Assembly (NCBI RefSeq): GCF_041276405.1
Contig: NZ_JBGGGT010000001.1
Span: forward strand, 293,501 to 357,500
Origin: Microvirga sp. TS319
GTDB taxonomy: Bacteria > Pseudomonadota > Alphaproteobacteria > Rhizobiales > Beijerinckiaceae
Direction: 5' to 3'
DNA length: 64,000 bases
Below, piece by piece: positions 4,227 to 22,181 of the stretch (the stretch's first letter is position 1; every line of letters begins with the position of its first letter). The translations under genes and the position numbers were made by a program. Under the pieces are notes generated by a model. That model was not told the origin of the DNA, did no database searches, and saw only the letters and a list, made by a program, of their open reading frames with translations.

Positions 4227-4233
4227 ACGAGGG

Positions 4234-4264
4234 CGAGGGACGCTGTCTCAGGCGGCGTCCCTCG
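4234..4264 (+). terminator. Hairpin after the RND pump gene, terminator-like
   Basis: CGAGGGACGC (4234-4243) pairs perfectly with GCGTCCCTCG (4255-4264) across an 11-nt loop, 7 bp after the pump stop. No U-tract follows, so it may be a Rho-assisted stop or a 3'-end stabiliser rather than an intrinsic terminator. Confidence 0.55.
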
Positions 4265-4298
4265 ATGCCTTCTGCCAAAGCAAAATTGGGCACGTTCT

Positions 4299-4769: not shown

Positions 4770-4791
4770 GGAATAGGGAGCGATCCAGCCT

Positions 4792-5382: not shown

Positions 5383-5440
5383 GGTTCTCTCACCCTGCTG
5401 CCGGAACGGCGGTTAGATCACGGACGTTACGGCTGCATAA

Positions 5441-5456
5441 TATACCAATCAGTATA
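5441..5456. promoter_or_regulatory. Probable TetR operator upstream of the tetR gene
   Basis: TATAC (5441-5445) and GTATA (5452-5456) form an inverted repeat with a 6-nt spacer in an AT-rich patch 59 bp upstream of the TetR start. Size and placement suit a TetR-family operator overlapping the promoter. Confidence 0.55.
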
Positions 5457-5459
5457 GTA

Positions 5460-5884
5460 AACATTTCTTCGGAGATTTCAAGATCTTATCCGGGTAAGTT
5501 TTAAGGGTTCTGTCAAGCATGGCGACTGTTTTCCGGTCGCCGTGACCTTCGCTGCCTAAAGTCAGGTTGAGGGCTGCACGAGTGCTGCGCGAGAGGTCGG
5601 GCATTTCCCCGCAACGGCCTATGCGGATATCGTCGGCCATTGTGGGGCGCACAGAATCGCCGGCCAAAGGCCACCACGTCGAGATCAACCTGCTTGAGCG
5701 GGCGAAATGGTGAATCGCGAGGACTTGGGCGGAATCTCTCCTCCTGGAAGGCAGCGATGAATTGAATTCGCTTGAGGGTCTCGAAGGTTAGCCACTGGCA
5801 CTCCTGAGACGTACCCCGTTGGTCCGCTTCGATACTCAAGTGCCGACGTTCGTTAAGCGGCCGGAACGTGAATTTTTGACCCCG
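5460..5884. other. 425-bp stretch without a recognisable gene
   Basis: Nothing with convincing coding features is visible between the TetR promoter and the IS1182 left end. Short open frames on the minus strand have no family I recognise. It may hold remnants of older insertions. Confidence 0.5.
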
Positions 5885-7569
5885 GTTGTGTAAAAACGCT
5901 GGCGGCGGGACAAGGCACACGGTGGTAGGACAGCCCAGCCTTGTTTGGGAGATCCGATGAGACGCTTTGTTGAAGGCGTGGATCGCAGCCAGACCACCCT
6001 GTTTCCCGAAAGCCTGGACGACTGGGTTGATGAGAACAACCCAGTCCGCGTCATCGACGCTTTTGTCGAGGCGCTCGATCTGAGGGCGCTTGGCTTTGCC
6101 GGCGTCGTACCCGACGCCACAGGACGCCCGTCATACCATCCCGCTATCCTGCTCAAGCTCTACATCTACGGCTACCTCAACCGGGTGCAGTCGAGCCGGC
6201 GCTTGGAACGCGAGGCCAGTCGCAATGTCGAGCTGATGTGGCTGACCGGCCGCCTGATGCCGGATCACAAGACCATTGCCAACTTCCGCAAGGACAATGG
6301 CCGCGCCATCCGTCAGGTCTGTGCCCAGTTCGTCACCCTCTGCCGTAAGCTGGGACTTCTGAACGCCGCCAGCGTGGCCATCGACGGCTCCAAGTTCAAG
6401 GCGGTCAACAATCGCGATAAGAACTTCACGCGGGCGAAGGTCGAGCGCCGCCGGGCTCAGATCGATGAGAGCGTTGGGCGCTATCTTCGGCAACTCGACA
6501 CGGCGGATCGGCATGAACCGACAGAGGCCCTGGCGGCCAGGACCACCCGGCTCAAAGAGAAGATTGCCAGGCTCGAGCAGGAGATGCAGCGTCTGGCCGA
6601 GGTGGAGGCGCAGGTGCTGGCCTCTCCCGACCAGCAGATCTCACTGACGGATCCGGATGCCCGCTCGATGGCGACCGGCGGGCGCGGCTCCGGAGTGGTG
6701 GGCTACAATGTGCAGGTGGCGGTCGAGACTGAGCACCATCTCATCGTGGCGCATGAGGTGACCAACGATGGCTGCGACCGTGCTCAGCTTTCCGCGATGA
6801 GCAAGGAAGCCAAGGCTGTTCTGGAGGTGGAGACGCTCGAAGCGGTCGCTGATCGCGGCTACTGGGACAGTGAGGAGATCCTGGCCTGCGACCAGGCGGG
6901 AGTGACCGTCACCTTGCCGAAGCCGATGACCTCCGGCTCGAAAGCGGATGGCCGGTTTGGCAAGCAGGACTTCGTCTATCTGCCCGACGAGGACGCCTAC
7001 CGCTGCCCGGCCGGCGAGACGCTCAGGTACTACTACAGCAACGTCGAGCGGGGGCTGACGCTGCGGCGCTACTGAACCACCGCCTGTCACACCTGCCCGA
7101 TCAAGAGCCGCTGCACGACAGCGAAAGAGCGCCGGATTGTGTGCTGGGAGCACGAGGATGTGTTGGAGGCGGTGCAGCGCCGGCTGGATCTGAACCCAGG
7201 GGCCATGCGCCAGCGGCGCGAGGTGGTCGAGCATCCGTTCGGCACGATCAAGCTGCGCATGGGTGCGACGCACTTCCTGCTGAAGCGACTGCCGAAGGTG
7301 AGGGGCGAGTTGGCGCTGCATGTGGTCGCCTACAATCTCACCCGAGTGCTGAACATCCTGGGCATCCAGCCGTTGATGACCGCCCTCAGAGCATAGGAGG
7401 CGGGCTTTGCTCGTGCCACCACGCCTCTGAGGCGTCCAAGGCTCGCCTCAGAGGCGATGGGAGCCCCAGACCGCCGATGATCAACCAAGTCGTGCTTACT
7501 AATGATGTTGAAGGGCTTTGGAGCGTGGAAAGCCGCTACCCGACCTCTGCCAAAGCGTTTTGACACGAC
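5885..7569 (+). mobile_element. IS1182-family insertion sequence with nonsense-interrupted transposase
   Basis: The ends are imperfect inverted repeats: GTTGTGTAAAAACGCT at 5885-5900 and AGCGTTTTGACACGAC at 7554-7569. They enclose a transposase frame and about 1.7 kb in all, a normal size for the family. A related end (GCGTTTTGACACACCC) bounds the second copy at about 41286-41301, which supports the boundary call. No clear target duplication was identified. Confidence 0.75.
5945..7396 (+). pseudogene. IS1182 transposase, broken by an in-frame TGA
   Basis: The frame would give about 483 aa, the normal family length. The N-terminal DUF772-type domain (NPVRVIDAFVEALDLRALGF, GRPSYHPAILLKLYIYGYLNR) is followed by the DDE core (VAIDGSKFKAVN, VADRGYWDSEE, then VEHPFGTIKLRMGA). 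Translation stops at TGA 7073-7075 within LRRY*TTACHTCPIKSRC. Relatives carry Trp here, so a TGG-to-TGA change is likely. The same frame then stays open to 7396, so both halves of the DDE core are present but separated. The element is probably immobile unless helped in trans. Confidence 0.88.
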
Positions 7570-7863
7570 CAAGACCCATTCCTGACCCTGCTCCAAGGAG
7601 GGGGACAGCAGGTCCGCCCCCGAACAAGCCCCGTTGCCGTTCGGTAACATGCCTCGACAAAACCTTAGTCAGCCGCATTCCAACCTGGAAACCTAGGCTT
7701 TTTCTCTTAATGTCTAGCCCGGTCGAAGGCGTTGCTGATTTGCCTGCAGGCCACCGGCAGGAGGTCAAATGCGCTAGCTTTCCCCAACTACTGTGGAACC
7801 GTTCCGTCGTCCGGAGCCAGGATCCGCGAGAAGGGGGCGGCGCCTGCCCATCGTTGCAAAATA
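7570..7863. other. 294-bp stretch without a recognisable gene
   Basis: This lies between the IS1182 right end and the 3' end of the GntR gene. Open frames here have no family resemblance I can name, and no clear hairpin terminator was found. Confidence 0.45.
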
Positions 7864-8544
7864 TTACTTGAGCATCCTCTCGAGCACCTCGGCAGCATTC
7901 CCGATATCGCTTCGGATTCCCCGCTCAAGTGCTTTGGGGTCACCTACCCTCAATGCCTGCAGGATCTGTTTATGTGCGGCATTCGCAACGCCATAGTTTC
8001 CCGCCTCGTGAAGCAGGTTGAAAAACGGGCTGATCCGGAGCCAGAGCGTTTCGATGAGGCCCAGAAGCACTTCAGAGCCGGAGGCTGAGTAGATCTTGAA
8101 GTGGAACTCCCGGTTTCCGTGCAGATACCGCTTCACGTCGCCGTCGGCGATGGCGCCGTCCATCAGGATCACCAGGTGATCGAGCCGGGCGATATCGTCC
8201 GATGTCAAACAAGCGAGAGCCCAGACGGCCGCCAGAGTTTCTACCTCGAGCCGTACGCGCCGCAAGTCGGTCAGGAGGTCCAGCGACAGTTTCGGAATCC
8301 CGATTGAACGTCCGCTGATCACCGTGAGGGCTTTGGCTGTCGTGAGCCGCTGAAGAGCCTCCCGCACCGGCATTGCGCTCACCCCGAACGCATCGGCCAA
8401 GCCTTGGATCGTCACAAGTTGGCCAGGAGCAATCTCTCCGTCGAGGATGAGGTCGCAGACACGCCGGTAAATCTCGTCCTGGAGCGTCCCGCGTTTGACG
8501 GGCATCACCGGCAGGGTCAATGGTTTTGCGCCAGGGTCGCTCAT
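7864..8544 (-). CDS. GntR family regulator, FadR/FCD subfamily
   Basis: A 226-aa protein with an N-terminal winged helix (LQDEIYRRVCDLILDGEIAPGQLVTIQGLADAFGVSAMPVREALQRL, about residues 20-68). The C-terminal all-helical FCD ligand domain includes RRVRLEVETLAAVWA, NREFHFKIYSASG and HKQILQALRVGD, whose Asp/His pattern usually binds a metal and an organic acid. It is transcribed away from the sugar-importer operon starting at 8737, with a 192-bp shared control region holding a dyad. It is the likely local regulator of cluster 1, and its ligand is probably a pathway acid. Confidence 0.93.
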   Translation of the reverse strand: MSDPGAKPLTLPVMPVKRGTLQDEIYRRVCDLILDGEIAPGQLVTIQGLADAFGVSAMPVREALQRLTTAKALTVISGRSIGIPKLSLDLLTDLRRVRLEVETLAAVWALACLTSDDIARLDHLVILMDGAIADGDVKRYLHGNREFHFKIYSASGSEVLLGLIETLWLRISPFFNLLHEAGNYGVANAAHKQILQALRVGDPKALERGIRSDIGNAAEVLERMLK

Positions 8545-8630
8545 TCCTACTCCCTAAGTGGAACTCGGCTACCCCATAGTCGCGAGGGGGACCACGTCGA
8601 GTTGGAATAGCTTGCCACATTTTGGATCAA

Positions 8631-8643
8631 TGATCTATGATCA
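8631..8643. promoter_or_regulatory. Candidate GntR operator in the divergent region
   Basis: TGATCTATGATCA is an inverted repeat of TGATC/GATCA with a 3-nt centre. A further related half (GGATCA) lies just before it at 8624-8629. It sits between the divergent GntR gene and the importer operon, about 94 bp before the binding-protein start. FCD regulators commonly bind short dyads of this type. Assignment is by position and symmetry only. Confidence 0.5.
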
Positions 8644-8736
8644 AAAGGAACGGGCCCGAAAGCTAAGGAGGTCCGGCACACGAGGTAACCCGCGGCAATG
8701 CCGGGCACCGGGATCGCCGTTCCAGAGGAGGGAGAC

Positions 8737-9867
8737 ATGACGCATTTCCCTATCAAGGCTTCGATGGCGGTCTGTTTGGCGATGCTTGGGCTTGTAACCG
8801 CAACGTCCGACCGCGCGATCGCGGCGGAGAAGAAAAAGATCTTCCTGTCGATGAGCTACATCGGCAACGACTGGCAGGCCGAGGCCGCGAACATGGTCAA
8901 GGCCATGGCGGCCCACAAGGACTTCGTCGACAAGGTCGACCTCCAGGTACAGGTCGCAGGCCCGAATGCGCAGCGCCAGATCCAGCAAATCAATGCGATG
9001 GTCCAGCAGGGCGCTCAGGCGATTATCGTCTATCCGATCTCTCCAACCGCCCTGAACTCCGCCGTGAAGAACGCCTGCGAGAAAGGCGTGATGATCATTG
9101 CCTACGACGCCGAAATCACGGAACCCTGCGCCTACAATGTCGCAATCGACCAGGAGGAGGCCGGGCGCGTGACGGCCGAATGGCTCGCGAAAAAGCTGAA
9201 CGGTAAGGGCAACATCCTTATGGTAACCGGCGTGCCGGGTACTTCGGTCGACACCCTGCGCACGAAGGCCGCCAAGGAGGTACTGGCCAAGTATCCGGAC
9301 ATCAAGGTCGTGGCCGAGGCGGTCGGCATGTGGAGCCAGGCGGTGGCCCGGACGGAACTCTCCAAGATCCTTGCCACGCGGAACTGGGACCAGATCGATG
9401 GCCTATGGATGCAGGTCGGGTGCTATACCGCCAACACGATGCAGATCGAAGCCGGAAAGAAGCCCGACCAGCTGAAGCCCTGCGCCGGCGAAGGGTCCAA
9501 TGGCGGTCGCATTCAGATGCTGCCCGCAAACTCCGATGTGGAGGGCGCTAACGGCACCTATGCGCCAATGGGTGCGCCGCGGATCTCATACGCTTCGCCC
9601 CCTTATGCGGGCGGCTATGCCCTGAAGCTTGCCTTGCAAAAGCTCGAGGGCAAGGAGATTCCCAAGAAGATCACGCTCCCCCTGCCGCTCGTGACCAACG
9701 AGACGATCAAGTACTGCAAGGAAGGCAGCTGGGCGGAGATGAGCCAAGGCTGCAATGCCTTCCCACCGGCCCTGGTGCCCAATCCAGGCTGGTTCGCCTC
9801 GATCTACTCGCCGGAAACGCCTGAGATCGGATTGCAGGCCGCCCTCGTGGGCCAGCCGGAACCTTAA
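8737..9867 (+). CDS. Sugar ABC transporter, periplasmic substrate-binding protein
   Basis: A 376-aa binding protein of the Peripla_BP_4/RbsB-like group. The ATG at 8737 is chosen because GGAGGGAG lies just upstream and a signal peptide follows directly (MAVCLAMLGLVTATSDRAIAA, cleavage near residue 29). The mature protein shows the two-lobed family pattern: IFLSMSYIGNDWQAEAANMVKAM, AIIVYPISPTALNSAVKNACEKGVMIIAYDAEI, GKGNILMVTGVPGTSVDTLR and ATRNWDQIDGLWMQVG. It captures the substrate for the ATPase and fused permease encoded next. It is the first gene of the operon, and a strong hairpin follows it, fitting the excess of binding protein such systems need. Confidence 0.94.
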   Translation: MTHFPIKASMAVCLAMLGLVTATSDRAIAAEKKKIFLSMSYIGNDWQAEAANMVKAMAAHKDFVDKVDLQVQVAGPNAQRQIQQINAMVQQGAQAIIVYPISPTALNSAVKNACEKGVMIIAYDAEITEPCAYNVAIDQEEAGRVTAEWLAKKLNGKGNILMVTGVPGTSVDTLRTKAAKEVLAKYPDIKVVAEAVGMWSQAVARTELSKILATRNWDQIDGLWMQVGCYTANTMQIEAGKKPDQLKPCAGEGSNGGRIQMLPANSDVEGANGTYAPMGAPRISYASPPYAGGYALKLALQKLEGKEIPKKITLPLPLVTNETIKYCKEGSWAEMSQGCNAFPPALVPNPGWFASIYSPETPEIGLQAALVGQPEP

Positions 9868-9891
9868 CCGACGCCCGGCCGATCAGCAGCC

Positions 9892-9916
9892 GGCGGTGCG
9901 CTCCGGGCGCACCGCC
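9892..9916 (+). other. Intercistronic hairpin between binding-protein and ATPase genes
   Basis: GGCGGTGCGC (9892-9901) pairs perfectly with GCGCACCGCC (9907-9916) around a 5-nt loop. There is no U-tract, so it is unlikely to stop all transcripts. Such hairpins often protect the upstream binding-protein message and lower downstream expression. Confidence 0.6.
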
Positions 9917-9955
9917 CTTCATTCTGGACGAGCGCCCCGTTGCCACAGGTGCATC

Positions 9956-11509
9956 ATGTCTGAGACCGCTCCGATGCCGGCGGTCCGCCCGGCAATTTCC
10001 ATCGAGCACATCCGGAAGGCCTACGGCGCCACGGTGGCGGTCGACGATGTTTCCTTCACGATCGCGGAGGGCAGCGTCCATGCCCTTCTCGGCGAGAATG
10101 GAGCCGGCAAATCGACCCTTGTGAAACTGCTGTCGGGGCTCGTTCTCCCGGATACGGGAGAGTTCCGGATCTTCGGTGAGACGATCCGCCTGGCAACACC
10201 GCGCGCGGCCCACCGCCATGGCATCCAGACCGCCTTTCAGGAGATGACCCTCGTCGACGACCTCACCGTTCTCGACAACATGCTTCTGCCGTACGGACCC
10301 GTCGGGCCGTCCGGGATGATCCGCCGACGGAGGGCGCACGAACTCGTCGCGGCCCATTTCGAAGCCCTGGGCCTCACCGCCATTCATCTCGACGAGGAGG
10401 TGGGGCAACTCGACCTCGCCGTCCAACAGAAGATCGAGATCGCACGCGCCATCTTCCGCAGGCCGCGCGTTCTGCTTCTCGATGAGCCGACGTCCACCCT
10501 TTCCGGACGTGACGTGGACTGGCTCGGCAATATCATCGCCGATCTTCGACGCAAGGGCGTCACCATCGTGTTCATTTCTCACCGGCTGCGCGAGGTACGC
10601 GCCTTTTGCGATACCATGACGGTGCTCCGCAACGGACGTCACATCGCAACCGGATCCATCTCTTCGTTCGATGACGGCGAAGTGATCCGCATGATCGCCG
10701 GACGCTCACTCTCGCATGCCTTCCCGCCGCGGCCCGCACGAACGCAGCGCTTCGGCCCGGAGGTTCTCGGGGCCGATCAACTTGCCACGACCGGCAAGCT
10801 GCGGCAGGCCTCGTTCAGCCTTCGCTCCGGTGAGATTCTGGGCGTTGCCGGCCTGCAGGGCATGGGACAGCTCGATTTCTTCCTGGCCTGCTTCGGCATG
10901 GCCGATCTGTCCGGTGGCACCCTGCGCGTGGATGCTAAGCCGATCGTTCTCACGTCGCCCGCCGATGCGGTGAAGGCCAATATCGGTATCAGCCTCGTGC
11001 CCGAAGATCGCAAGACGGAGGCCCTGTTTCTCAAGCTCACCGGCAAGCACAATGCCTCTCTGCCGGTGATAGACCGCTTCGTCCACGGCGTACTGATCGA
11101 TCGCAAAGCCGAGACCGAGGCAGTGTCGCGTGTCTTCCAACAGGTCGAGGTGGATGGCCGGGCTCTGTGGACGCGCGTGAGCGCCTTCTCGGGAGGCAAC
11201 CAGCAGAAGATCGCGATCGCCAAGTGGCTTATCGCCGAGAGCCGCGTCCTGCTGCTGTTCGATCCCACACGCGGAATCGACGTCGGCACCAAGAACGAAC
11301 TGTATCGTCTCATTCGGGCCTATGCCGATGCCGGCGGGGCGGTGCTGTTCCACTCGACGGAGATCCCCGAACTCGTCCACCTCTCGGACCGGGTCATCGT
11401 CTTCTACGGTGGCCGGGTGGCGGCCGAGATTGCGGGGGACCACCTCACCGAAGAGGAAATCCTACGCGCTGCGCTCGGCACAGAGCATCAACCGGAGAAG
11501 GCGGCGTGA
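9956..11509 (+). CDS. Sugar ABC transporter ATP-binding protein (two NBDs, RbsA/MglA type)
   Basis: A 517-aa ATPase with two nucleotide-binding domains, as usual in carbohydrate uptake CUT2 systems. NBD1 has a good Walker A (GENGAGKSTLVKLLSG) and Walker B (PRVLLLDEPTSTLS). NBD2 has the degenerate P-loop of the family (GVAGLQGMGQLDFF) but a clear signature (FSGGNQQKIAIAKWL) and Walker B-like LLLFDPTRGIDVGT. A longer frame exists upstream, but the ATG at 9956 (MSETAPMPAVRPAISIEHIRKAYG) starts just before the first NBD and clears the preceding hairpin. The TGA at 11507-11509 overlaps the GTG start of the permease, so translation is coupled. Confidence 0.94.
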   Translation: MSETAPMPAVRPAISIEHIRKAYGATVAVDDVSFTIAEGSVHALLGENGAGKSTLVKLLSGLVLPDTGEFRIFGETIRLATPRAAHRHGIQTAFQEMTLVDDLTVLDNMLLPYGPVGPSGMIRRRRAHELVAAHFEALGLTAIHLDEEVGQLDLAVQQKIEIARAIFRRPRVLLLDEPTSTLSGRDVDWLGNIIADLRRKGVTIVFISHRLREVRAFCDTMTVLRNGRHIATGSISSFDDGEVIRMIAGRSLSHAFPPRPARTQRFGPEVLGADQLATTGKLRQASFSLRSGEILGVAGLQGMGQLDFFLACFGMADLSGGTLRVDAKPIVLTSPADAVKANIGISLVPEDRKTEALFLKLTGKHNASLPVIDRFVHGVLIDRKAETEAVSRVFQQVEVDGRALWTRVSAFSGGNQQKIAIAKWLIAESRVLLLFDPTRGIDVGTKNELYRLIRAYADAGGAVLFHSTEIPELVHLSDRVIVFYGGRVAAEIAGDHLTEEEILRAALGTEHQPEKAA

Positions 11510-13593
11510 GCTCGGTATCCGAAACGTCACGGTTCCCTCTGGCTTCATCGGCCGCCTCGCTGAGCATGCCGCGGCGCATCGTTCGGTCCCGCGGGCTACT
11601 GATCGCGATTGCCGTATTCCTTCTGCTGCTGGCAGCCGTATCCAGTATCGGGTCCGTGAGCCTGTCCTACTACGATCTCTCCCAAATGGCCACGAGCGGC
11701 GCGACTCTTGCGCTCGCCGCCATCGGCCAGACGATCGTGATCCTGTCGGGCGGGTTCGATCTGTCTGCAGGCGCGGTGATCTCCCTCGTCAACGCGGTTC
11801 TGGCGTCGTTCTTTCAGGATGCGACCACTTCGCCCTCGCTCATCATCGCGGTCGGCGTCGGAATCGGCCTGATCTCGGGGGCATTCAACGGCTTCTTCGT
11901 TGCCGTGCTGCAAATGCAGCCGATCGTGGTCACCCTCTCGACCATGTTCATCGTCCAGGGCATCACGCTCCTGATCATGGAGAAGCCAGGTGGCATGGTT
12001 TCTCCGGGCCTGAGCGATTTCCTGATGGGGGATGCCGTTCCGAACGCCTTGCCGAAACCGATCCTGCTCATTCTGATCGTGCTGGCGCTTTGGACATGGC
12101 TGAAGCGCACTCGTTTCGGGACGGCCATCTACGCAATCGGCAGCGACTTGGACTCGGCTCGCGCGGCCGGCGTATCGACGCGCTTCGTCCAGTTTGCGGT
12201 CTACGTCATCGGCGGCGGGTGCTATGGGCTCGCGGGAACCTTCATCAGCGCCCAGACCGGATCGGGCGATCCGCTTGTCGGCAATCCGATGCTCCTGCAG
12301 ATGTTTGCTGCCGTCGTTGTGGGCGGGACCGTACTCGGGGGCGGACGGGGCGGTCCGCTCGGGACCGTGTTCGGCGCGTACATCCTGATGATGGTCGTCA
12401 ACATCCTCCTGGTCCTCAATGTCTCGGCCTATTATTCGACTGTTGCCGAGGGGATGATCCTGATCCTAGCCGTGCTCGCCGGATCCCTCGGCCGCACGTC
12501 GCGACTGAGCAAGCATATCCGGCTCCTTATCCTCCGGATCCAGGCCCGCCGGCGGAACCTGTTGCCCGAACAGCGCAGCCATCGGCCACAGTTCCTGCGC
12601 CTTCCTGACGCCGGATTCACGGCAGAGCGGACACCAGCGGAGATGCCGGGGGTCCTCGTTCGCAACCGCGAGACCCTGCGTTTCGCGCTTCCGGCTTACA
12701 TCTGCTTCGTCGTCGTGGTCCTGGTGACGCAGTTCACCCTCGGCCACGCGCTGACAAGTTGGTCCTACTTCAATTCGCTGATCGTTCTCTCGTCCTTCCT
12801 GACCGTGATGGCCCTCGGGCAGGGGGCCGTGATCCTCACCGGCGGGCTCGACCTGTCGCTGCCCTGGACCATCGGCTTATGCGGCATCCTCCTTGCCGGG
12901 CTCGTGAAGGGATCCGATGCGGCTCTCATTTACGCCCTGCCGGCGGTCCTGGCGATCGGGCTCGTGGTCGGCTTCATCAACGGCACCGGCATCGTCTTTC
13001 TCGGGATCTCTCCGATCGTGATGACGCTGGCCGTCAACGGGATCCTGCAGGGCGCGGCGCTGGTCTATTCCAATGGGACGCCGGCCGGCTTCTCGTCTCC
13101 TCTGCTTCGCCGCCTCATGACGGACCGGGAGTTCCTCGTCACTCCGGTGGTGCTCTTCGTGCTCCTGTTCGTCGTGATCGCCGTGATGCTCCTGGGACGA
13201 ACCGTCTTCGGACGCCGGATCTATGCCGTCGGCAACGGCGAACGCGTGGCCGCCCTGTCGGGAGTGCCCGTGGGGCGGACATTGATCGGCGTCTACATGC
13301 TGTCCGGCCTGTGCTCCGCCATTGTCGGCGTCCTGCTGACGGGGTTTTCCGGTCAGGCCAGCCTCGGCATGGGAGACGAATACCTTCTGCCTTCCATCGC
13401 TGTCGTGGTCATCGGCGGTGCGCTCATCACCGGCGGCCGGGGCCATTACCTCGGCATGTTCGGCGGCGTGCTCCTGTTGACGAGTCTGCAGACTCTTCTG
13501 GCCGGAACAACCCTTCCGTATGCCACCCGAGCCATCCTCTTCGGCTTGGTCGTTCTCGCCGCCGTGATGGCGTTGCGTGAACGGCGGCCCTGA
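11506..13593 (+). CDS. Fused double permease of a CUT2-type sugar ABC transporter
   Basis: A single 695-aa frame contains two RbsC-like permease domains. Domain 1 spans about residues 25-325 (GATLALAAIGQTIVILSGGFDLSAGAVISLVNA, AVVVGGTVLGGGRGGPLGTVFGA). A hydrophilic Arg-rich linker follows (KHIRLLILRIQARRRNLLPEQ). Domain 2 spans about 380-690 (VMALGQGAVILTGGLDLSLPW, VVVIGGALITGGRGHYLGM). CUT2 importers normally have one permease of about 320-340 aa acting as a dimer, so here the dimer is encoded as one chain of two diverged halves. The GTG at 11506 is chosen because it overlaps the ATPase stop (GTGA). No frameshift or stop lies in the linker, so the fusion is real in this sequence. Confidence 0.9.
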   Translation: MSSVSETSRFPLASSAASLSMPRRIVRSRGLLIAIAVFLLLLAAVSSIGSVSLSYYDLSQMATSGATLALAAIGQTIVILSGGFDLSAGAVISLVNAVLASFFQDATTSPSLIIAVGVGIGLISGAFNGFFVAVLQMQPIVVTLSTMFIVQGITLLIMEKPGGMVSPGLSDFLMGDAVPNALPKPILLILIVLALWTWLKRTRFGTAIYAIGSDLDSARAAGVSTRFVQFAVYVIGGGCYGLAGTFISAQTGSGDPLVGNPMLLQMFAAVVVGGTVLGGGRGGPLGTVFGAYILMMVVNILLVLNVSAYYSTVAEGMILILAVLAGSLGRTSRLSKHIRLLILRIQARRRNLLPEQRSHRPQFLRLPDAGFTAERTPAEMPGVLVRNRETLRFALPAYICFVVVVLVTQFTLGHALTSWSYFNSLIVLSSFLTVMALGQGAVILTGGLDLSLPWTIGLCGILLAGLVKGSDAALIYALPAVLAIGLVVGFINGTGIVFLGISPIVMTLAVNGILQGAALVYSNGTPAGFSSPLLRRLMTDREFLVTPVVLFVLLFVVIAVMLLGRTVFGRRIYAVGNGERVAALSGVPVGRTLIGVYMLSGLCSAIVGVLLTGFSGQASLGMGDEYLLPSIAVVVIGGALITGGRGHYLGMFGGVLLLTSLQTLLAGTTLPYATRAILFGLVVLAAVMALRERRP

Positions 13594-13607
13594 CACCGGA
13601 GTGCCCC

Positions 13608-14399
13608 ATGCCGCAAGCTCCCGACACCTTCGCGATCCAGCCCGGGCTCCGGGTTCTCGTCACGGCGGGTGCATCCGGCATCGGCCGCGCGATCAGCGAG
13701 CTCCTGATCGTCCACGGAGCCAGAGTGCACATTTGCGATGTGTCCGACACCTTTCTGGAGGACTTCAGGGCGGCGCATCCCCAAGCCGGGGCAACCACAG
13801 CCGACGTCTCGTCAGAAGCCGATGTCGAGCACCTGTTCGCCGATCTCAAAGCCGCTCTCGGCGGCCTCGATGCCCTGATCAATAACGCCGGCATCGCCGG
13901 GCCGACGGGAGGCGTCGAGCAGATCGCGCCCGCCGAGTGGCGCCACACGCTCGACGTCTGCCTCACCGGGCAGTTCCTGTGCGCGCACCATGCCGTGCCC
14001 CTGATCAGAGCCGCCGGAGGAGGAGCGATCATCAATCTGTCCTCGGCGGCTGGACGGTTCGGCTACGCGTTCCGCACGCCTTACTCGGCCGCCAAGTGGG
14101 GCGTGATCGGATTCACCCAGAGCCTTGCCAAGGAGCTCGGACCCGCGAACATCCGCGTCAATGCGATCCTTCCCGGCATCGTCGAAGGGCCGCGCATGGA
14201 GGGTGTCATCGAGGCCCGCGCGAAGCAGACCGGCGTCGGCTATGCCGAGATGGAGAAGACCTACCTCGAGCGCATCTCGCTGCGCCGGATGGTCACGACT
14301 GGCGACGTGGCCTCCACGGTAGCCTTCCTCCTTTCGGCCGCGGGGCGGAACATCTCGGGTCAATCGCTTGGAGTCGACGGCAACGTCGAGAGCCTCTGA
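13608..14399 (+). CDS. Short-chain dehydrogenase/reductase (SDR)
   Basis: A 263-aa classical SDR. The NAD(P)-binding motif is TAGASGIGRAI (about residues 24-34), followed by NNAGIAG, the catalytic Ser in INLSSAAG, and YSAAK with the Tyr/Lys pair. NIRVNAILPGIVEGPRM and the C-terminal SGQSLGVDGN are typical. It starts 14 bp after the permease stop in the same operon. In this context it probably oxidises a sugar or sugar-acid hydroxyl, giving the lactone or ketone handled by the downstream enzymes. Cofactor and exact substrate are not readable from sequence. Confidence 0.93.
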   Translation: MPQAPDTFAIQPGLRVLVTAGASGIGRAISELLIVHGARVHICDVSDTFLEDFRAAHPQAGATTADVSSEADVEHLFADLKAALGGLDALINNAGIAGPTGGVEQIAPAEWRHTLDVCLTGQFLCAHHAVPLIRAAGGGAIINLSSAAGRFGYAFRTPYSAAKWGVIGFTQSLAKELGPANIRVNAILPGIVEGPRMEGVIEARAKQTGVGYAEMEKTYLERISLRRMVTTGDVASTVAFLLSAAGRNISGQSLGVDGNVESL

Positions 14400-14436
14400 T
14401 GCGTGGAGAGAGGCTAGACCATCGAGGGAGCTTACC

Positions 14437-15384
14437 ATGAGCAGAGTCGCCGTCATCGGGTCGGGGTTCATCGGGCGGGCGTGGGCCATCAGCTATGCCC
14501 GCGCCGGCCACGACGTTGTCTTGTGGGACGAGGAACGGGACGCACCCGGCAGGGCTTTGGCCTATATCGAGACGATCCTGCCCGACCTGGAGGCGAACGA
14601 TCTTCTGGAGGGGGCGTCCGCGACCGATGTGCGGGCGCGCATGCAATCCGCGACAACCCTGGAGGAGGCTGTCGCGGGCGCGGTGCACGTACAGGAGAAC
14701 ACGCCGGAGGACGTCGAGATCAAGCGCAACGTCTTCGGCTGCCTCGACGCGGCAGCAGGCCCCGACACTGTGTTGGCGAGTTCGACATCGGCGATCTTGC
14801 CTTCGGCCTTCACGATGGATCTGAAGGGGCGCGCGCGCTGCCTCGTCGTGCATCCGATCAATCCGCCCTATCTGATCCCGGCTGCAGAACTTGTCCCCGC
14901 GCCCTGGACGGATCCGGCCGTGGTGGAGCGCACAGCAGCGTTTCTGCGCACCGCCGGCCATTCGCCGATCGTGATGAAGCGCGAAATCGACGGCTTCGTC
15001 ATGAACCGCATGCAAGGGGCGCTGCTGGAGGAGGCTTTCCGGCTCGTCGCCGAGGGCTATGCCAGCGTCGAAGACATCGACATCGGCCTGCGCGAAGGCC
15101 TCGCGCTCCGCTGGTCGTTCATCGGGCCGTTCGAAACGATCGACCTCAATGCGCCAGGGGGCATCCGCGATTATGCCGAGCGATATCAGCAGATCTACGC
15201 CCGCATCTTCCCGAGTGCTCAATGGCGTGCCGATTGGACGGGTCCGGTCATGGAAGACATCGAGGCGGAGCGGCGTCGCCAGCTGCCGGCCGACAGGCTG
15301 GCCGAGCGGCAGAACTGGCGCGATCGCAGGCTGATCGCATTGGCGGCCCACAAGCGTCGCGCCGACAGAGAGATCGGGCGCTGA
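14437..15384 (+). CDS. 3-hydroxyacid dehydrogenase, lambda-crystallin / L-gulonate 3-dehydrogenase type
   Basis: A 315-aa NAD-dependent enzyme of the 3-hydroxyacyl-CoA dehydrogenase superfamily. The Rossmann motif is VIGSGFIGRAWAISYARAGHDVVLWD, the catalytic His lies in HPINPPYLIPAAELVP, and the C-terminal domain includes GFVMNRMQGALLEEAFRLV and GLALRWSFIGPFETIDLNAPGG. These stretches resemble the lambda-crystallin branch, which oxidises the C3 hydroxyl of free sugar acids such as L-gulonate, and the related L-carnitine dehydrogenases, more than fatty-acid enzymes. GAGGGAG precedes the ATG at 14437. With the BKACE gene next door, the expected product is a 3-keto (beta-keto) acid. Confidence 0.9.
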   Translation: MSRVAVIGSGFIGRAWAISYARAGHDVVLWDEERDAPGRALAYIETILPDLEANDLLEGASATDVRARMQSATTLEEAVAGAVHVQENTPEDVEIKRNVFGCLDAAAGPDTVLASSTSAILPSAFTMDLKGRARCLVVHPINPPYLIPAAELVPAPWTDPAVVERTAAFLRTAGHSPIVMKREIDGFVMNRMQGALLEEAFRLVAEGYASVEDIDIGLREGLALRWSFIGPFETIDLNAPGGIRDYAERYQQIYARIFPSAQWRADWTGPVMEDIEAERRRQLPADRLAERQNWRDRRLIALAAHKRRADREIGR

Positions 15385-15414
15385 ACCCGGAAACAGCAGA
15401 GGAGGCGAGACGCC

Positions 15415-16347
15415 ATGGTGTCGAACAGGAAGGTCATCATCACATGCGCCGTGACCGGCGCGATACACACCCCTTCGATGTCGCCGCACCTGCCGGTTAC
15501 GCCCGAGGAGATTGCCGACGCCGCCATCGGCGCGGCAGAGGCAGGGGCCGCCATCGTGCATCTGCACGCGCGGGACCCTCAGACCGGCAAGCCCGATCAG
15601 ACCCCGGACGCATTCGCCCGCTTTCTGCCGCGCATCAAGCAGGCCACGAATGCCGTCATCAATCTCACGACGGGCGGGGCACCCTATATGACCGTGCAGG
15701 AACGTGTGAAGCCCGCCGAGGTCTTCAGGCCTGAAGTCGCCTCGCTCAATATGGGCTCGATGAACTTCGGCCTGTTCCCCATGCTGAACCGGTTCAAGAC
15801 GTTCCAGCACGACTGGGAGGAGCAGGCTCTGGAAAATTCCAAGGATCTGATCTTCCGCAATACCTTCAAAGATATCGAGTTCGTCCTGCAGACCTTGAGC
15901 GACGGCGGTACGCGCTTCGAATTCGAATGCTACGATACCGGCCACCTCTATAACCTCGCTCACTTTCTTGAGCGCGGCCTCGTCCAGCCACCGCTCTTCG
16001 TGCAGACCGTGTTCGGCATCCTGGGAGGAATCGGGACGCATCCGGAGGACGTCATGCACATGAAGCGAGCCGCCGACCGGCTGTTCGGCGACCGATACAC
16101 ATGGTCGGTGCTGGGCGCCGGTCGCAGCCAGCTCCCGATCGCGGCGCAGGCGGCGGCCATGGGAGGCAACGTGCGCGTGGGGCTGGAGGATTCCCTTTGG
16201 GCCGGCCCGGGACGATTGGCTCAATCGAGCGCCGAACAAGTTCGGGCCGTCCGGCAGATCATCGAGGGCCTCGGCCTGTCCGTGGCCTCTCCCGACGAGG
16301 CCCGTGAGATCTTGCACCTTAAGGGAGCCGACAAGGTCGCCTTCTAG
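15415..16347 (+). CDS. BKACE family beta-keto acid cleavage enzyme (DUF849)
   Basis: A 310-aa TIM-barrel enzyme of the 3-keto-5-aminohexanoate cleavage (Kce/BKACE) family. These zinc enzymes react a beta-keto acid with acetyl-CoA to give acetoacetate plus a new acyl-CoA. Visible are the N-terminal VIITCAVTGAIHTPSMSPHLPVTPEEIA, the metal-binding His-x-His in IVHLHARDPQTGKPDQ, the strands LTTGG and EVASLNMGSMNFG, FEFECYDTGHL, and GNVRVGLEDSLW near the C-terminus. Substrate specificity varies widely within the family. The neighbouring sugar importer, SDR, gulonate-3-dehydrogenase-type enzyme and lactonases point to a 3-keto sugar acid, most simply a 2-deoxy-3-keto-aldonate, rather than an amino acid. 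Confidence 0.93.
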   Translation: MVSNRKVIITCAVTGAIHTPSMSPHLPVTPEEIADAAIGAAEAGAAIVHLHARDPQTGKPDQTPDAFARFLPRIKQATNAVINLTTGGAPYMTVQERVKPAEVFRPEVASLNMGSMNFGLFPMLNRFKTFQHDWEEQALENSKDLIFRNTFKDIEFVLQTLSDGGTRFEFECYDTGHLYNLAHFLERGLVQPPLFVQTVFGILGGIGTHPEDVMHMKRAADRLFGDRYTWSVLGAGRSQLPIAAQAAAMGGNVRVGLEDSLWAGPGRLAQSSAEQVRAVRQIIEGLGLSVASPDEAREILHLKGADKVAF

Positions 16348-16372
16348 TCAGAGCGGGAATGGAACGCCGATC

Positions 16373-17251
16373 ATGCTGCACATCGAGCTTCTCATCGACG
16401 CCCGCGCGGAACTCGGGGAGGGCCCCCTGTGGGACGTGGCCGAACAGCGACTCTATTGGATCGACAGCTTGGGCGCGAAGGTCCATTCCTGCGATGCCCA
16501 GGGCGGCTTGCCACGTTCCTGGGAGGTTCCGGAGCACATCGGTTCCCTTGCCCTGTGCGAGAGCGGCGGTGCCATCGTGGCGCTGCGCGACGGCTTCTAC
16601 CGCCTGGATTTCGAGACCGGCGCCTGCCGCAAGCTCGCCGACCCCGATCCGGGCAAGCCTCGGATCCGCATGAACGACGGCAAGGTCGACCGCCAAGGCC
16701 GCTTCGTTGCGGGCTACATGGATTACGACGAGAGCGATCCGGTCTGTTCTGTCTTCCGGCTTGATCCGGATGGCTCTGTCGCAAGGATCGACGAGGGCAT
16801 CGTGTGCTCGAACGGGCCATGCTGGAGCCCCGACGGACGCACGTTCTACTTCGCGGACACCTACACGAGGGGCATCTGGGCCTACGACTACGACCCGGCT
16901 ACCGGAGCCGCGACGAGGCGGCGGATCTTCTGCTCATTTCCGGCCTGCGGGCTGAGAGGGCTTCCGGACGGCGCCACCGTGGATGCCGAGGGCTTCGTGT
17001 GGAGCGTTTCCGTCTATGAGGGCAAACTCGCCCGCTTTGCGCCCGATGGCAGGCTCGATCGCGTGGTCGGCCTCCCGGTCGAAAGCGCCACCAGCCTGAC
17101 CTTCGGAGGGCCGGATCTCGACGTCGCCTACGTCACATCGATGGCCCGCTCCGTGAAGGGCGTTGCCCCGAAGGAACGCGAGGCAGGCGGATTGTTTGCC
17201 GTGCACGGGCTCGGGGTTCAGGGCCTGCCCGAACCGCGGTTCAGGGGCTGA
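16373..17251 (+). CDS. SMP-30/gluconolactonase/LRE family lactonase (copy 1)
   Basis: A 292-aa six-bladed beta-propeller hydrolase that opens sugar-acid lactones with a divalent metal. Family landmarks are the metal-binding Glu in ELGEGPLWDV (near residue 15), RMNDGKVDRQGRFVAGYM, CSNGPCWSPDGRTFYFADT, DGATVDAEGFVWS and TSLTFGGPDLDVAYVTS. The ATG at 16373 is chosen because the family N-terminus begins there. It starts 25 bp after the BKACE stop. It shares its layout with the next gene, so the pair arose by duplication or serves two lactones. Confidence 0.93.
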   Translation: MLHIELLIDARAELGEGPLWDVAEQRLYWIDSLGAKVHSCDAQGGLPRSWEVPEHIGSLALCESGGAIVALRDGFYRLDFETGACRKLADPDPGKPRIRMNDGKVDRQGRFVAGYMDYDESDPVCSVFRLDPDGSVARIDEGIVCSNGPCWSPDGRTFYFADTYTRGIWAYDYDPATGAATRRRIFCSFPACGLRGLPDGATVDAEGFVWSVSVYEGKLARFAPDGRLDRVVGLPVESATSLTFGGPDLDVAYVTSMARSVKGVAPKEREAGGLFAVHGLGVQGLPEPRFRG

Positions 17252-17305
17252 TCAGCGGAGAGGCCCCGGCGCCGGCGGGACAAGACGAGGGAGGAGAAGG
17301 GACAC

Positions 17306-18181
17306 ATGCGTATCGAGGTGCTGATCGACGTCAAGACGATCCTCGGCGAGGGACCCCTCTGGGACGTCGATGAAGAACGACTCTATTTCATCGACAGTTT
17401 CGGCTGCAGCGTGTTCCGCTGTACGGCAGACGGAGGTGAGGTGCGGGCCTGGGATGTGCCCGCCAAGATCGGGTCGATGGCCTTGCGGAAGCAGGGTGGT
17501 GCGGTCGTTTCACTGGCGAACGGCTTCCATTTCCTCGATTTCAAAACGGGCGAAACACAGCTGATCATCGACCCGGAGCCGGGCAAGCCCGGCAACCGCA
17601 TCAACGATGGCAAGGTGGACAAGCGCGGGCGTTTCGTCGCGGGTTCCATGGACACCATGGAGGAAGGGCCGAATGGCGCCCTCTACCGTCTCGATCCGGA
17701 TCTCTCTTTGCACATGCTCGACGACGGCATTGTCGTGTCCAACGGACCATGCTGGAGCCCGGATGGGCGGATCTTCTATTTCGCCGATACGTGGTCGGGC
17801 GAGATCTGGGCCTACGATTATGACCACGAGACCGGCGCCGTATCCAATCGGCGAACCTTCACCACCGTCGACACCTCACGTGGCGGCGCAGCCGATGGAT
17901 CCACGGTCGACGAGGAGGGGTTCCTCTGGAATGCCCAGGTCTATGACGGCAAGGTCGTACGCTACACCCCGGATGGGACGATCGACCGGGTGATCGACAT
18001 GCCGGTCAAGAAGGTGACCAGTGTGATGTTCGGCGGACCGAACCTCGACATTCTCTTCGTCACCTCCATGGCCAAGCCGCCGTTGCCGCGCTTCCCCGGG
18101 GACGGTGTTCAACGCGGCAGCCTTTTTGCAATTTATGACCTCGGCATCCGGGGCGTGCCAGAGCCGCGCTTCGCTGGATGA
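17306..18181 (+). CDS. SMP-30/gluconolactonase/LRE family lactonase (copy 2)
   Basis: A 291-aa paralogue of the preceding gene with the same propeller signature: ILGEGPLWDVDEERLYFIDS, RINDGKVDKRGRFVAGSMD, VSNGPCWSPDGRIFYFADTWSGEIWAYDYD, DGSTVDEEGFLWNAQVYDGKVVRY and TSVMFGGPNLDILFVTS. All expected metal ligands (Glu, Asn, Asp) appear present. GGAGGAG precedes the ATG at 17306. It is the last gene of the cluster: an IS6 element begins 9 bp after the stop, so any further pathway gene on this side has been displaced. Confidence 0.93.
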   Translation: MRIEVLIDVKTILGEGPLWDVDEERLYFIDSFGCSVFRCTADGGEVRAWDVPAKIGSMALRKQGGAVVSLANGFHFLDFKTGETQLIIDPEPGKPGNRINDGKVDKRGRFVAGSMDTMEEGPNGALYRLDPDLSLHMLDDGIVVSNGPCWSPDGRIFYFADTWSGEIWAYDYDHETGAVSNRRTFTTVDTSRGGAADGSTVDEEGFLWNAQVYDGKVVRYTPDGTIDRVIDMPVKKVTSVMFGGPNLDILFVTSMAKPPLPRFPGDGVQRGSLFAIYDLGIRGVPEPRFAG

Positions 18182-18190
18182 CGCCATGGC

Positions 18191-19006
18191 GGGCACTGTC
18201 AGGTTAACCTGTGGGTGACGGGATGCTGGCATAGGCGAGGGCATGAAACCGACCCGCCATGCTCGAGATGCCCGTCACCGCTTCCCGGCTGAGGTGATCA
18301 GCCATGCCATTTGGCTTTACTTCCGGTTTCCGCTCAGCCTGCGCATGGGCGAGGAAATGCTGGCCGCCAGAGGCATCAAGGTCAGCCATGAGACGGTCCG
18401 GCAATGGGCATTGAAGTTCGGCCAGAGCTTTGCCACCCAAATTCGCCGGCGTCTTCCGGCAACTGCAGACAAATGGCACCTTGATGAGGTCGCGATCGGC
18501 ATCGCGGGCAAGAAGCAATGGCTCTGGCGCGCAGTGGATCAGAACGGAGTTGTGCTCGATGTCCTGGTCCAGAGCCGTCGCGATGCGAAAGCGGCAAAGC
18601 GTTTGCTGCGCAAACCGCTGAAGCGGCAGTGCCGGTCACCGCGTGTGATGATCACGGACAAGCTACCCAGCTGTGGAGCAGCCAAGCGCGAAATCATGCC
18701 GGCTGTCGAACACCGTCAGCACAAGAGGCTCAACAATCGGGCGGAGAATTCTCACCAGTCGACCCGGCGACGCGAACGCATCATGAAGCGCTTCAAATCA
18801 GCCAGGCAGGCGCAGCGTTTCCTCTCGGTTCATGACCAGGTGGCAAACCTTTTCCTCCGTCCCGCAAACACCAATGCCGCTGATCATCGCCAGTCCCGCG
18901 CTCGGGCGTTCCAGGCCTGGACCGAGATAACCGGTGCCGCGACGGTTGCCTGGTCCAGCCTCGAACCAGGATCGGCGTATCCGTCGTCAATAACTTGACG
19001 GTGCCC
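18191..19006 (+). mobile_element. IS6-family element, complete
   Basis: The ends match as inverted repeats: GGGCACTGTCAGGTTAA at 18191-18207, and on the other strand GGGCACCGTCAAGTTAT at 19006-18990. Length is about 816 bp. The flanking 8-mers differ, so recombination or deletion at one side is likely. The right end abuts a remnant of a different IS6-family copy. Confidence 0.82.
18243..18998 (+). CDS. IS6-family transposase
   Basis: A 251-aa DDE transposase. The N-terminal HTH (HRFPAEVISHAIWLYFRFPLSLRMGEEMLAARGI) is followed by catalytic Asp in KWHLDEVAIGIAGKKQWLWRAVD, Asp in RVMITDKLPSCG and Glu in LNNRAENSHQSTRRRERIMKRF. The core is intact. The C-terminus is slightly longer than usual because the stop lies in the right terminal repeat. 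Confidence 0.9.
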   Translation: MKPTRHARDARHRFPAEVISHAIWLYFRFPLSLRMGEEMLAARGIKVSHETVRQWALKFGQSFATQIRRRLPATADKWHLDEVAIGIAGKKQWLWRAVDQNGVVLDVLVQSRRDAKAAKRLLRKPLKRQCRSPRVMITDKLPSCGAAKREIMPAVEHRQHKRLNNRAENSHQSTRRRERIMKRFKSARQAQRFLSVHDQVANLFLRPANTNAADHRQSRARAFQAWTEITGAATVAWSSLEPGSAYPSSIT

Positions 19007-19008
19007 GC

Positions 19009-19181
19009 GATAGCTGATCGGAAATTGTAGATACCAGCGGACCGCCTAGAGGATGATCTCCGCCTGAACTGCCGACCCTTGAACAGGTTCTTGTTATTTC
19101 GCTTCACACCAGCCCCTCGCAATACCCTCGTGTCGTAGCTTAGGCAGAGCAAGCTTCAACGCTGCAACAGAACCGGGTTAT
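19009..19181 (-). mobile_element. Remnant of a second IS6-type element (5' part only)
   Basis: On the minus strand this has the start of an IS6 transposase (KRNNKNLFKGRQFRRRSSSRRSAGIYNFRSAIAG) and the terminal repeat GGTTCTGTTGCAGCGTT near 19179. It matches base for base in long stretches the 5' end of the IS6 copy at 32520-32702 (NKNPFKGRQF..., shared start-region spacing). The rest of the gene is missing, replaced by the IS6 element at 18191-19006. Confidence 0.72.
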
Positions 19182-19223
19182 GTCAGTCCGGTTCAGTTCG
19201 AAAAGCCGGCCCGATAGCTGCGA

Positions 19224-20264
19224 GAGCCATTTCCGGCTATTTCGAGTCAGAGGGATTCCGCCCTGAGCTCTGATGTGGCTTGCTGGCTTCCAGACATGGA
19301 GGCCCGGCATGGCACGTGCTTACAGTCAGGATCTACGGGATCGGGTGATCAAGACGGCCCTGGGTGGCGTCTCGGTGCGGCAGGCCGCCGCCCGCTATGG
19401 CGTTGGCGCCTCAACGGCCATTCTGTGGGTGCGCCGCGCTCGATCCGGCGAGGTGGCGGCCCGCCGGCAGGGACAGCCCAGAGGCTCCAAGCTCGATGCG
19501 CATGCGGCCTTTCTGGTGGAGCTGATTGACGCCTCCTCGCATATCAGTCTTCACGAGATGCAGGCCCGCTTAAGGGAGGAGCGCGGCGTCTCGGCTGGCA
19601 TCGGCACGCTCTGGCGCTTCTTCCACGCGCGGGCGATCACCGTCAAAAAAAACCGCGCACGCCTGCGAGCGCGACCGGCCTGACGTCAGAGCCGCGCGGG
19701 AGGCTTGGTTTGACGGGCAACTGGATCTCGATCCGGACCGGCTGGTGTTCATCGACGAGACCAGCGCCTCGACCAAGATGGCGCGCCTGTATGGCCGTTG
19801 CGCACGGGGGCAGCGTTTGCGGGTCGGCCTTCCGCACGGACACTGGAAGACCACCACCTTTGTGGCCGGCCTGCGCCTGAGCGGGTTCTCCGCCCCGATG
19901 GTGCTGGACGGGCCGATGACCGGCCCGTAGTTTGCAGCTTACGTCGAGCAGATCCTGGTGCCGACCCTCCGACCGGGCGACGTGGTGATTTTGGACAACC
20001 TGCCGCCCCACAGAAGTGCGGCCGTGCGAGAGCTTGTTGAGGCGACCGGCGCCAGGCTGATGCGCCTGCCGCCGTATTCGCCCGACTTCAACCCGATTGA
20101 GAATGCCTTTGCCAAGCTCAAGGCCCTGCTACGCAAGGCAGCCGCCCGGACGAAAGAAACACTCTGGCAGACCATCGGCGAGTTGCTGGACGAGTTCTCG
20201 CCCGAGGAATGTGCCAACTACTTCAGGGCCGCTGGATATGAACCGGAGTAAGCGGAAATGGCTC
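19224..20264 (+). mobile_element. IS630-family element, degenerate
   Basis: The inverted ends share GAGCCATTTCCG (19224-19235, and on the minus strand 20264-20253). The interior is an IS630 transposase with a frameshift and a stop. Its right edge has been hit by the IS5 element at 20268. Confidence 0.7.
19309..20251 (+). pseudogene. IS630 transposase: frameshift at an A8 run plus an in-frame TAG
   Basis: Part 1 (19309-19683) has the HTH half: YSQDLRDRVIKTALGGVSVRQAAARYGVGASTAILWVRR. Part 2, in the next frame, continues from the AAAAAAAA run at 19645-19652 as the DDE domain: VFIDETSASTKMARLYGRC, GDVVILDNLPPHRSAAVRELVEATGA and YSPDFNPIENAFAKLK. IS630 elements often use programmed frameshifting at an A-run, so the shift alone may be normal, although the step needed here is +1 (or -2). 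The TAG at 19928-19930 (DGPMTGP*FAAYVEQ) is a true nonsense change. The catalytic triad is otherwise preserved. Confidence 0.83.
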
Positions 20265-20267
20265 TAA

Positions 20268-21221: not shown

Positions 21222-21355
21222 TAAGTCGCTCTCCACTAATCCGAAGCAAATCCAGCATTCACCTTAGCCGTAAGAGTGGTTGCTTATAGTAGCTGGATTG
21301 GGCTTGGATTTGATGGCTCAATGCACGCACTGTCAAGGCTTGGTGCATTGGCAAA

Positions 21356-22111: not shown

Positions 22112-22181
22112 TGCTGTCCATCAATTGCCGTTGCGCCATAGCAGAAAACAGCCGAAAGTCCAGGAAGTTCATCTTCTCTCG

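Follow-up and report, generated by a model that had tools for sequence, protein, structure and literature searches.

A recurring gene cluster of Microvirga sp. TS319 proposed to import and cleave 2-deoxypentonate lactones

A gene cluster at positions 7864–18181 of a 64,000-nucleotide stretch of Microvirga sp. TS319 DNA (NZ_JBGGGT010000001.1, 293,501–357,500; the whole stretch is the window) encodes a CUT2-type sugar importer, a short-chain dehydrogenase/reductase (SDR), a lambda-crystallin-type dehydrogenase (LCR), a beta-keto acid cleavage enzyme (BKACE) and two SMP-30 lactonases. We lean, by a little, towards a role for the cluster in 2-deoxypentonate catabolism, with the compound most likely taken up as its lactone by the CUT2 importer and cleaved by the BKACE to glyceryl-CoA and acetoacetate. 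The importer would take up 2-deoxypentonate as a neutral, furanose-like lactone, which the SMP-30 enzymes would open in the cytoplasm. The SDR and LCR, presumably for opposite C3 configurations, would oxidize C3 of the free acid to 2-deoxy-3-ketopentonate, and the BKACE would convert this and acetyl-CoA to glyceryl-CoA and acetoacetate. Glyceryl-CoA would be hydrolyzed to glycerate and phosphorylated to 2-phosphoglycerate, while acetoacetate would again yield acetyl-CoA. In the window's own genome, these last steps would fall to unlinked host genes. Substrate, stereochemistry, order of steps and the use of those host genes are what we infer.

The cluster is a true recurring unit, beyond chance, because its block of importer, SDR and BKACE recurs in 18 other loci. 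Loci (labeled L###) were collected by a genome scan for BKACE, keeping the best 80 of 504 relatives, to which plasmid records and further genomes were then added. A locus was placed in the CUT2 set when it held a solute-binding protein (SBP) of at least 60% identity together with the ATPase, permease, SDR and BKACE. With the window included and repeats dropped, 19 loci from Alpha- and Betaproteobacteria belong to this set, their taxa including Rhizobiaceae, Aurantimonadaceae, Phyllobacteriaceae, Rhodospirillaceae, Rhodovibrionaceae and Burkholderiaceae. LCR is present in 18 of the 19 and a detectable SMP-30 in 17; L135, one of the two loci without, has a more divergent SMP-30 within the same gene run. 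Thirteen loci were excluded from the count: repeats of the window and own-genome places (L001–L004, L085, L098, L108–L110), the short L099 (G340), a second R-7 record (L136), the second half of R. ruizarguesonis (L125), and L138. The importer is rare. At E 1e-90, the SBP has a match in 7 of 385 genomes of the class (own included), with at least 70% identity in only three, and the A. tumefaciens SBP as query at E 1e-110 matches in 5 of 398 genomes of the phylum (own included). Six further loci (L102–L107) have importers with a 43–50% identical SBP and no match to an SDR or BKACE of the cluster type; some lie near CocE/NonD-type hydrolase-like genes, as judged by eye.

The SDR (13608–14399, + strand) has the expected catalytic residues Y159 and K163 in place. 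In P. simiae, an SDR oxidizes deoxyribonate and cleavage by a BKACE was proposed (Price et al. 2019, PMC6365646). In that paper, consecutive P. simiae locus tags comprise a GntR regulator, SDR, BKACE, lactonase and two major facilitator superfamily (MFS) genes. The deoxyribonate cluster of P. bryophila consists of genes for an AraC regulator, BKACE, transporter, beta-hydroxyacyl-CoA dehydrogenase and SDR, and plasmid loci L114 and L115 repeat its gene order. The window SDR is 52–54% identical to the last SDR of these loci; the tested deoxyribonate SDRs are 50–60% identical to one another (PMC6365646). In a quick tree, the window and L114/L115 SDRs fall in one 41-row clade (SH-aLRT 98), and the window SDR lies inside a starred 22-row group with most SDRs of the CUT2 clusters. 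The SDR is more likely a C3 dehydrogenase, here a 2-deoxyaldonate (D-3-hydroxy) 3-dehydrogenase, than an aldose 1-dehydrogenase, because it shares a clade with SDRs of deoxyribonate-type clusters. The initial annotation had assigned it aldose C1 oxidation, which is less well supported by this identity and clade; its broader proposals, a sugar-acid route ending in BKACE cleavage and a 2-deoxy acid as the best-fitting substrate, are supported. Querying with the L115 SDR brought up 7522 protein matches, and the 120 listed include no characterized name. The own genome may hold a sister pathway on contig C1 (444000–460000, L113), where a second BKACE, 59% identical to the window copy, has as neighbors a further SDR of the same wider family (52%) and, by eye, a binding protein of the branched-chain type.

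LCR (14437–15384, + strand), of the 3-hydroxyacyl-CoA dehydrogenase (3HCDH) family, scores 472 bits against NF004783 (cut-off 347). Residues H139, S118 and N190 are in place, as located by the spacing of residues named in PMC10470551. The best solved relatives are the lambda-crystallins 3ado and 3f3s, a likeness to L-gulonate 3-dehydrogenase. Lambda-crystallin acts on L-gulonate, but no gulonate pathway genes were recognized in the window cluster. As is common in their families, enzymes of the LCR type would use L-3-hydroxy acids, and SDRs of this type D-3-hydroxy acids. Beside this stands a precedent from C. scatologenes, whose BKACE-linked 3HCDH-type enzyme acts on a free acid and prefers (S)- over (R)-3-hydroxybutyrate (PMC10470551). 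LCR may be a second C3 dehydrogenase acting on the free acid, of opposite hand to the SDR, with the pair taking both C3 epimers.

The pairing of the two enzymes was counted in the 52 of 80 BKACE loci whose flanks exceed 4 kb on each side, within 9 kb and at identity thresholds of 45% for SDR and 42% for LCR. Both were found in 23 loci, LCR only in 7, SDR only in 4 and neither in 18; Fisher's test gives p 5e-5, uncorrected for relatedness between the rows. The 28 shorter-flanked loci, left out of the test, hold both in 4, LCR only in 4, SDR only in 1 and neither in 19. SDR and LCR as mere alternatives for one step were rejected, since the pair co-occurs. SDR and BKACE without an LCR detected at the 42% threshold were also seen in L080, L113–L116, L120 and L121, and L120 and L064 have a 34–35% identical 3HCDH relative nearby. 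In L114 and L115, a FabG-like SDR, the second dehydrogenase there, is a possible analog of LCR. The step that the initial annotation gave to LCR, oxidation to the 3-keto acid, is retained, though not as LCR's alone, the SDR being a likely C3 dehydrogenase too.

Several observations concern LCR in other settings. The Methylocapsa LCR of L005 is the sister of the window enzyme (SH-aLRT 95); at its locus (519–10930), an LCR–BKACE pair adjoins, by eye, RuBisCO-like, DUF1537 kinase, triosephosphate-isomerase-like and RpiB-like genes and a CUT2-like importer. The literature matched by a search for apionate or 3-hydroxyacyl-CoA dehydrogenase held no mention of 'apionate'. In L006, L007, L009 and L012, LCR–BKACE pairs without SDR are followed at most ~1.5 kb behind the BKACE by a convergent amidase-family gene (PF01425 in L007, the others by eye), which suggests an amide-linked 3-hydroxy acid as the substrate there. 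In L092, L094 and L096, LCR lies near histidinol-dehydrogenase-like genes and a CUT2-type importer, with no BKACE in the stretch; L092 and L096 also have AHL-lactonase-like genes.

The BKACE (DUF849; 15415–16347, + strand) scores 374 bits against PF05853 and 560 bits against NF053538 (cut-off 430), and its best solved relatives are 3e49 and 8rio. Residues H49, H51, E171, R254 and E258 are all in place; H49, H51 and E258 are presumably metal ligands. E171 and R254 are catalytic residues named in PMC11961710, which describes a BKACE of this family as accepting several neutral 3-keto acids. Of 106 aligned BKACEs, 103 have Ile at position 17. The position of Kce Glu14, equated through the shared GA- motif, is this Ile17 in the window BKACE rather than Glu, and the score against NF052387 (242 bits) is below the cut-off of 382; a lysine fermentation role was rejected on these grounds. 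In a midpoint-rooted tree, the window BKACE, two genes from the SDR, lies outside the group of the L114/L115 BKACEs and belongs to no starred group; its nearest relatives are BKACEs of LCR–BKACE pairs. Two CUT2 loci, L135 and L137, have their BKACEs in the six-row group of L114/L115 (SH-aLRT 99), which includes two own-genome paralogs, yet they carry Ile17. It seems, then, that one BKACE can replace another in the cluster; this supports a single substrate class without proving it.

The importer comprises a periplasmic SBP (8737–9867; PF13407, Peripla_BP_4), a double ATPase (9956–11509; PF00005 in two stretches) and a fused double permease (11506–13593), a single long open reading frame with two PF02653 (BPD_transp_2) stretches, all on the + strand. 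Relatives likewise encode one permease gene of about 2.0–2.1 kb. The SBP model (pLDDT 86.6) has 4pe6 and ribose-type proteins as nearest folds, along with other generic sugar-binding proteins, and the fold does not fix the ligand. Both lactonases, SMP30-1 (16373–17251) and SMP30-2 (17306–18181), are on the + strand and match PF08450 (SGL). SMP30-2 is the better conserved, with a 71–81% identical match in 13 of the 18 other loci, compared with 54–64% in 6 of 18 for SMP30-1. The initial annotation saw two lactonases as a trait of a new variant; both are indeed present in the window, but SMP-30 is duplicated in only 4 of the 19 CUT2 loci.

A homology search found SMP-30 in 17 of the 19 CUT2 loci and in none of 36 SDR+BKACE loci that lack this importer; such a search can overlook divergent members, L135 being an example, and the importers of the 36 loci were only partly typed. 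This association is what one would expect if a neutral lactone is imported here and the open acid elsewhere. It is not a general rule, because P. simiae pairs its lactonase with MFS importers (PMC6365646). If the SDR is not an aldose dehydrogenase, the cluster is without one, and the imported compound is then more likely a lactone. A sugar importer does not by itself prove a sugar, since TRAP and branched-chain-type importers are also found next to an SDR/LCR/BKACE trio. Loci L020, L021, L023 and L041 combine SDR, BKACE, a divergent LCR and a TRAP-type importer (by eye, in those inspected). Of these, L021 (Pfam) and L041 (by eye) have a galactarate/altronate-dehydratase-family gene, and L020, L021 and L023 have a CoA transferase.

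Genes downstream in relatives bear on the products of cleavage. In R. lusitanum (L084) and on A. tumefaciens plasmid pQ15_94_2 (L123), genes for a chemoreceptor, a glycerate 2-kinase and a HIBCH-like protein lie behind SMP-30, and the L084 HIBCH-like protein scores 442 bits against NF004127 (cut-off 274). In R. ruizarguesonis (L122/L125), the downstream genes are a chemoreceptor, larA, larC, larE, larB, glycerate kinase, HIBCH-like, CoA transferase and thiolase, plausibly a full set leading from glyceryl-CoA and acetoacetate to central metabolism. Their linkage suggests that the substrate is a C5 2-deoxypentonate or its lactone, with glyceryl-CoA and acetoacetate as the cleavage products. The HIBCH-like gene is a candidate for the glyceryl-CoA hydrolase, on which no report was found in the titles or abstract openings of the papers listed for glyceryl-CoA. 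In Roseobacteraceae (L020, L021, L023), a CoA-transferase pair lies between BKACE and LCR and is a possible alternative discharge of glyceryl-CoA. The other contig of the own genome encodes one glycerate kinase homolog (52% identical) and a HIBCH homolog (43%).

At E 1e-60, LarA of the R. ruizarguesonis type has matches in 8 plasmid records out of 72,556, the R. ruizarguesonis cluster itself among them. On a Rhodovastum plasmid (L156), larA and larC/E/B are followed by a kinase of another glycerate kinase family, and in four further Rhizobium plasmid records larA lies about 14–16 kb from a glycerate kinase gene. Some LarA homologs prefer glycerate (PMC11770544). The best solved relative of the R. 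ruizarguesonis LarA is described as broad-spectrum, so it is the gene neighbors that suggest glycerate as its substrate. The Rhodovastum run adjoins a 2-keto-3-deoxygluconate permease gene and is likely a glycerate racemase setting.

A more ambitious version combines these elements, and we put it forward only tentatively. The unrelated SDR (D-3-hydroxy) and LCR (L-3-hydroxy) would together erase the C3 center, so that 2-deoxy-erythro- and 2-deoxy-threo-pentonate lactones would converge on one 3-keto acid. A nickel-dependent glycerate racemase in some relatives would erase the remaining center, and the HIBCH-like enzyme beside glycerate kinase would be the missing glyceryl-CoA hydrolase.

Several points weigh against the 2-deoxypentonate assignment. 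The kinase/HIBCH linkage is found in 3 of the 19 loci only, some other flanks being too short to tell; all three are Rhizobiaceae and fall in one SDR subclade, possibly a single acquisition. The window itself has none of the downstream genes, and transposase genes come after SMP30-2. HIBCH homologs of 52–62% identity occur in 9 of 397 genomes of the order, and none of the nine is near a BKACE or this kinase (16.5–19.5 kb around). For the P. simiae pathway, direct evidence of BKACE cleavage is lacking by the authors' own statement (PMC6365646). L114 and L115 were matched to the tested P. bryophila cluster by gene order, not by the tested sequences. The window BKACE is just 56–58% identical to theirs, and its position 17 is Ile, as in the 18 other CUT2 loci, whereas L114/L115 have Thr. 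Locus L138 has the importer, with an SBP of at least 60% identity, without SDR, LCR or BKACE in the sequenced stretch examined. Finally, the SDR and LCR of L093 are close to those of CUT2 locus L140, yet lie beside a different ABC importer, with a GMC oxidoreductase, an aldehyde dehydrogenase and an M20-type hydrolase also among the neighbors.

The same chemistry could act on another chain length, with 2-deoxytetronate (3,4-dihydroxybutyrate or its lactone) or 2-deoxyhexonate cleaved to glycolyl-CoA or a C4 acyl-CoA plus acetoacetate. The window itself does not settle the chain length, and one member of this BKACE family can use several neutral 3-keto acids (PMC11961710). In three relatives, however, a glycerate kinase gene follows the cluster at a distance of a few genes, in one of them beside the LarA set; this argues for C5, and we regard another length as unlikely. 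Somewhat less probable still is the order of the initial annotation, in which aldose C1 is oxidized by the SDR and the lactone opened by SMP-30, leaving LCR as the sole source of the 3-keto acid that the BKACE cleaves. An importer and lactonases would suit a sugar, and LCR and BKACE do occur without SDR in 7 of 52 well-flanked loci. SDR and BKACE also occur without LCR at 42% identity, however (4 of 52 and the further loci named above), the SDR belongs to the deoxyribonate-dehydrogenase-type clade, and it is kept in the 36 loci without CUT2 importer, where SMP-30 was undetected.

A phloroglucinol-like route would have the SDR reduce an aromatic compound, a hydrolase open the ring, LCR serve as (S)-3-hydroxy-5-oxohexanoate dehydrogenase and the BKACE as triacetate acetoacetate-lyase. 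The model NF053538 is named for 3,5-dioxohexanoate, and the phloroglucinol cluster of C. scatologenes joins an SDR, a BKACE and a 3HCDH-type dehydrogenase of free (S)-3-hydroxy acids (PMC10470551). That cluster also has a cyclase-family hydrolase, phloroglucinol reductase and a transporter described as major-facilitator type, whereas Pfam found no cyclase-family hydrolase domain in the ten proteins scanned here. With the CUT2 importer, SMP-30, the SDR clade and the glycerate kinase of relatives also against it, this route is improbable. Least probable by far is a carnitine-like route through carnitine dehydrogenase and BKACE, which the initial annotation had likewise thought unlikely. LCR is a distant relative of carnitine dehydrogenases, and the SAR11 carnitine clusters also place carnitine dehydrogenase with BKACE (PMC12421898). 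LCR scores far under the cut-offs of the carnitine dehydrogenase models (169 bits against 592 for NF005716; 165 against 414 for NF005471), and this reading was rejected; a sugar-type importer, lactonases and the glycerate kinase linked in relatives do not fit it either, and the betaine/choline genes and transporter reported for the SAR11 clusters are absent from the window cluster.

The 2-deoxypentonate proposal resembles the deoxyribonate pathway of Price et al. in its SDR of the 3-dehydrogenase type, its BKACE and the need for glycerate kinase downstream; P. simiae further shares a lactonase and a GntR regulator with a TGATCA-core site, and P. bryophila a second hydroxyacyl dehydrogenase (PMC6365646). 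The window differs in its CUT2 instead of MFS importer, its SMP-30 lactonase and the lack of a deoxyribose dehydrogenase in the cluster. Its second dehydrogenase is LCR where L114/L115 have the FabG-like SDR, and its BKACE differs from theirs in sequence and at Ile17. Two Caballeronia loci and L142 start with GntR, SDR, BKACE and lactonase, which at the level of gene type matches the order of the first four P. simiae locus tags, followed by the CUT2 importer, LCR and SMP-30. The lactonase of this leading block is of the metallo-beta-lactamase family in L091. We noticed no description of the CUT2/LCR/BKACE/SMP-30 combination among the open-licence papers listed in our searches. The proposal makes a recurring operon a testable pathway with a defined substrate class, and suggests that catabolism of the deoxyribonate type extends, in transport and perhaps in stereochemistry, beyond the described MFS/deoxyribonate form. 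For the glyceryl-CoA hydrolase, which GapMind's authors list as unknown (PMC9007349), it offers a candidate, and it suggests a physiological setting for glycerate-racemizing LarA, whose significance is said to be still undetermined (PMC11770544).

The first gene of the cluster encodes a GntR/FCD transcriptional regulator (7864–8544, − strand; PF00392 and PF07729) and is divergent from the SBP gene. This arrangement holds in all 12 loci with an extractable intergenic region (13 given). A candidate operator with a TGATCA core, assigned no strand, lies between the two genes at 8621–8647. TGATCA occurs in 9 of the 12 regions and is absent in L044, L082 and L139. Random pieces of the same loci gave a mean of 1.0 and a maximum of 6 of 12 (2000 draws), and GC-poor pieces from nine of these loci, which could include true sites, a mean of 3.4 and a maximum of 7. 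The site proposed for the P. simiae deoxyribonate GntR regulator is GTGATCAC (PMC6365646).

All reading frames of the run were found at the coordinates listed in the initial annotation, and their families, the fused permease included, were confirmed with Pfam and NCBIfam. The most likely starts are 9956 for the ATPase, 11506 for the permease and 16373 for SMP30-1. Rfam gave no match in window positions 5000–20000. ARAGORN made a single call, a tRNA-Pro at 9847–9939 (− strand), which overlaps the 3' end of the SBP gene and is probably spurious. The assembly has two contigs and 6.26 Mb in all, and the window is part of contig C1 (2.07 Mb). The run is flanked by a transposase-like open reading frame at 5945–7075 (by eye) and an IS6 transposase at 18243–18998. 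The former belongs to an apparently broken, IS1182-like transposase copy (5945–7397, by eye), whose frame stops early at 7073–7075 while remainder-like codons continue. Directly after the cluster, transposase-like genes stand in a row from 18243 to 23500, the IS6 at 18243 confirmed and the rest recognized by eye.

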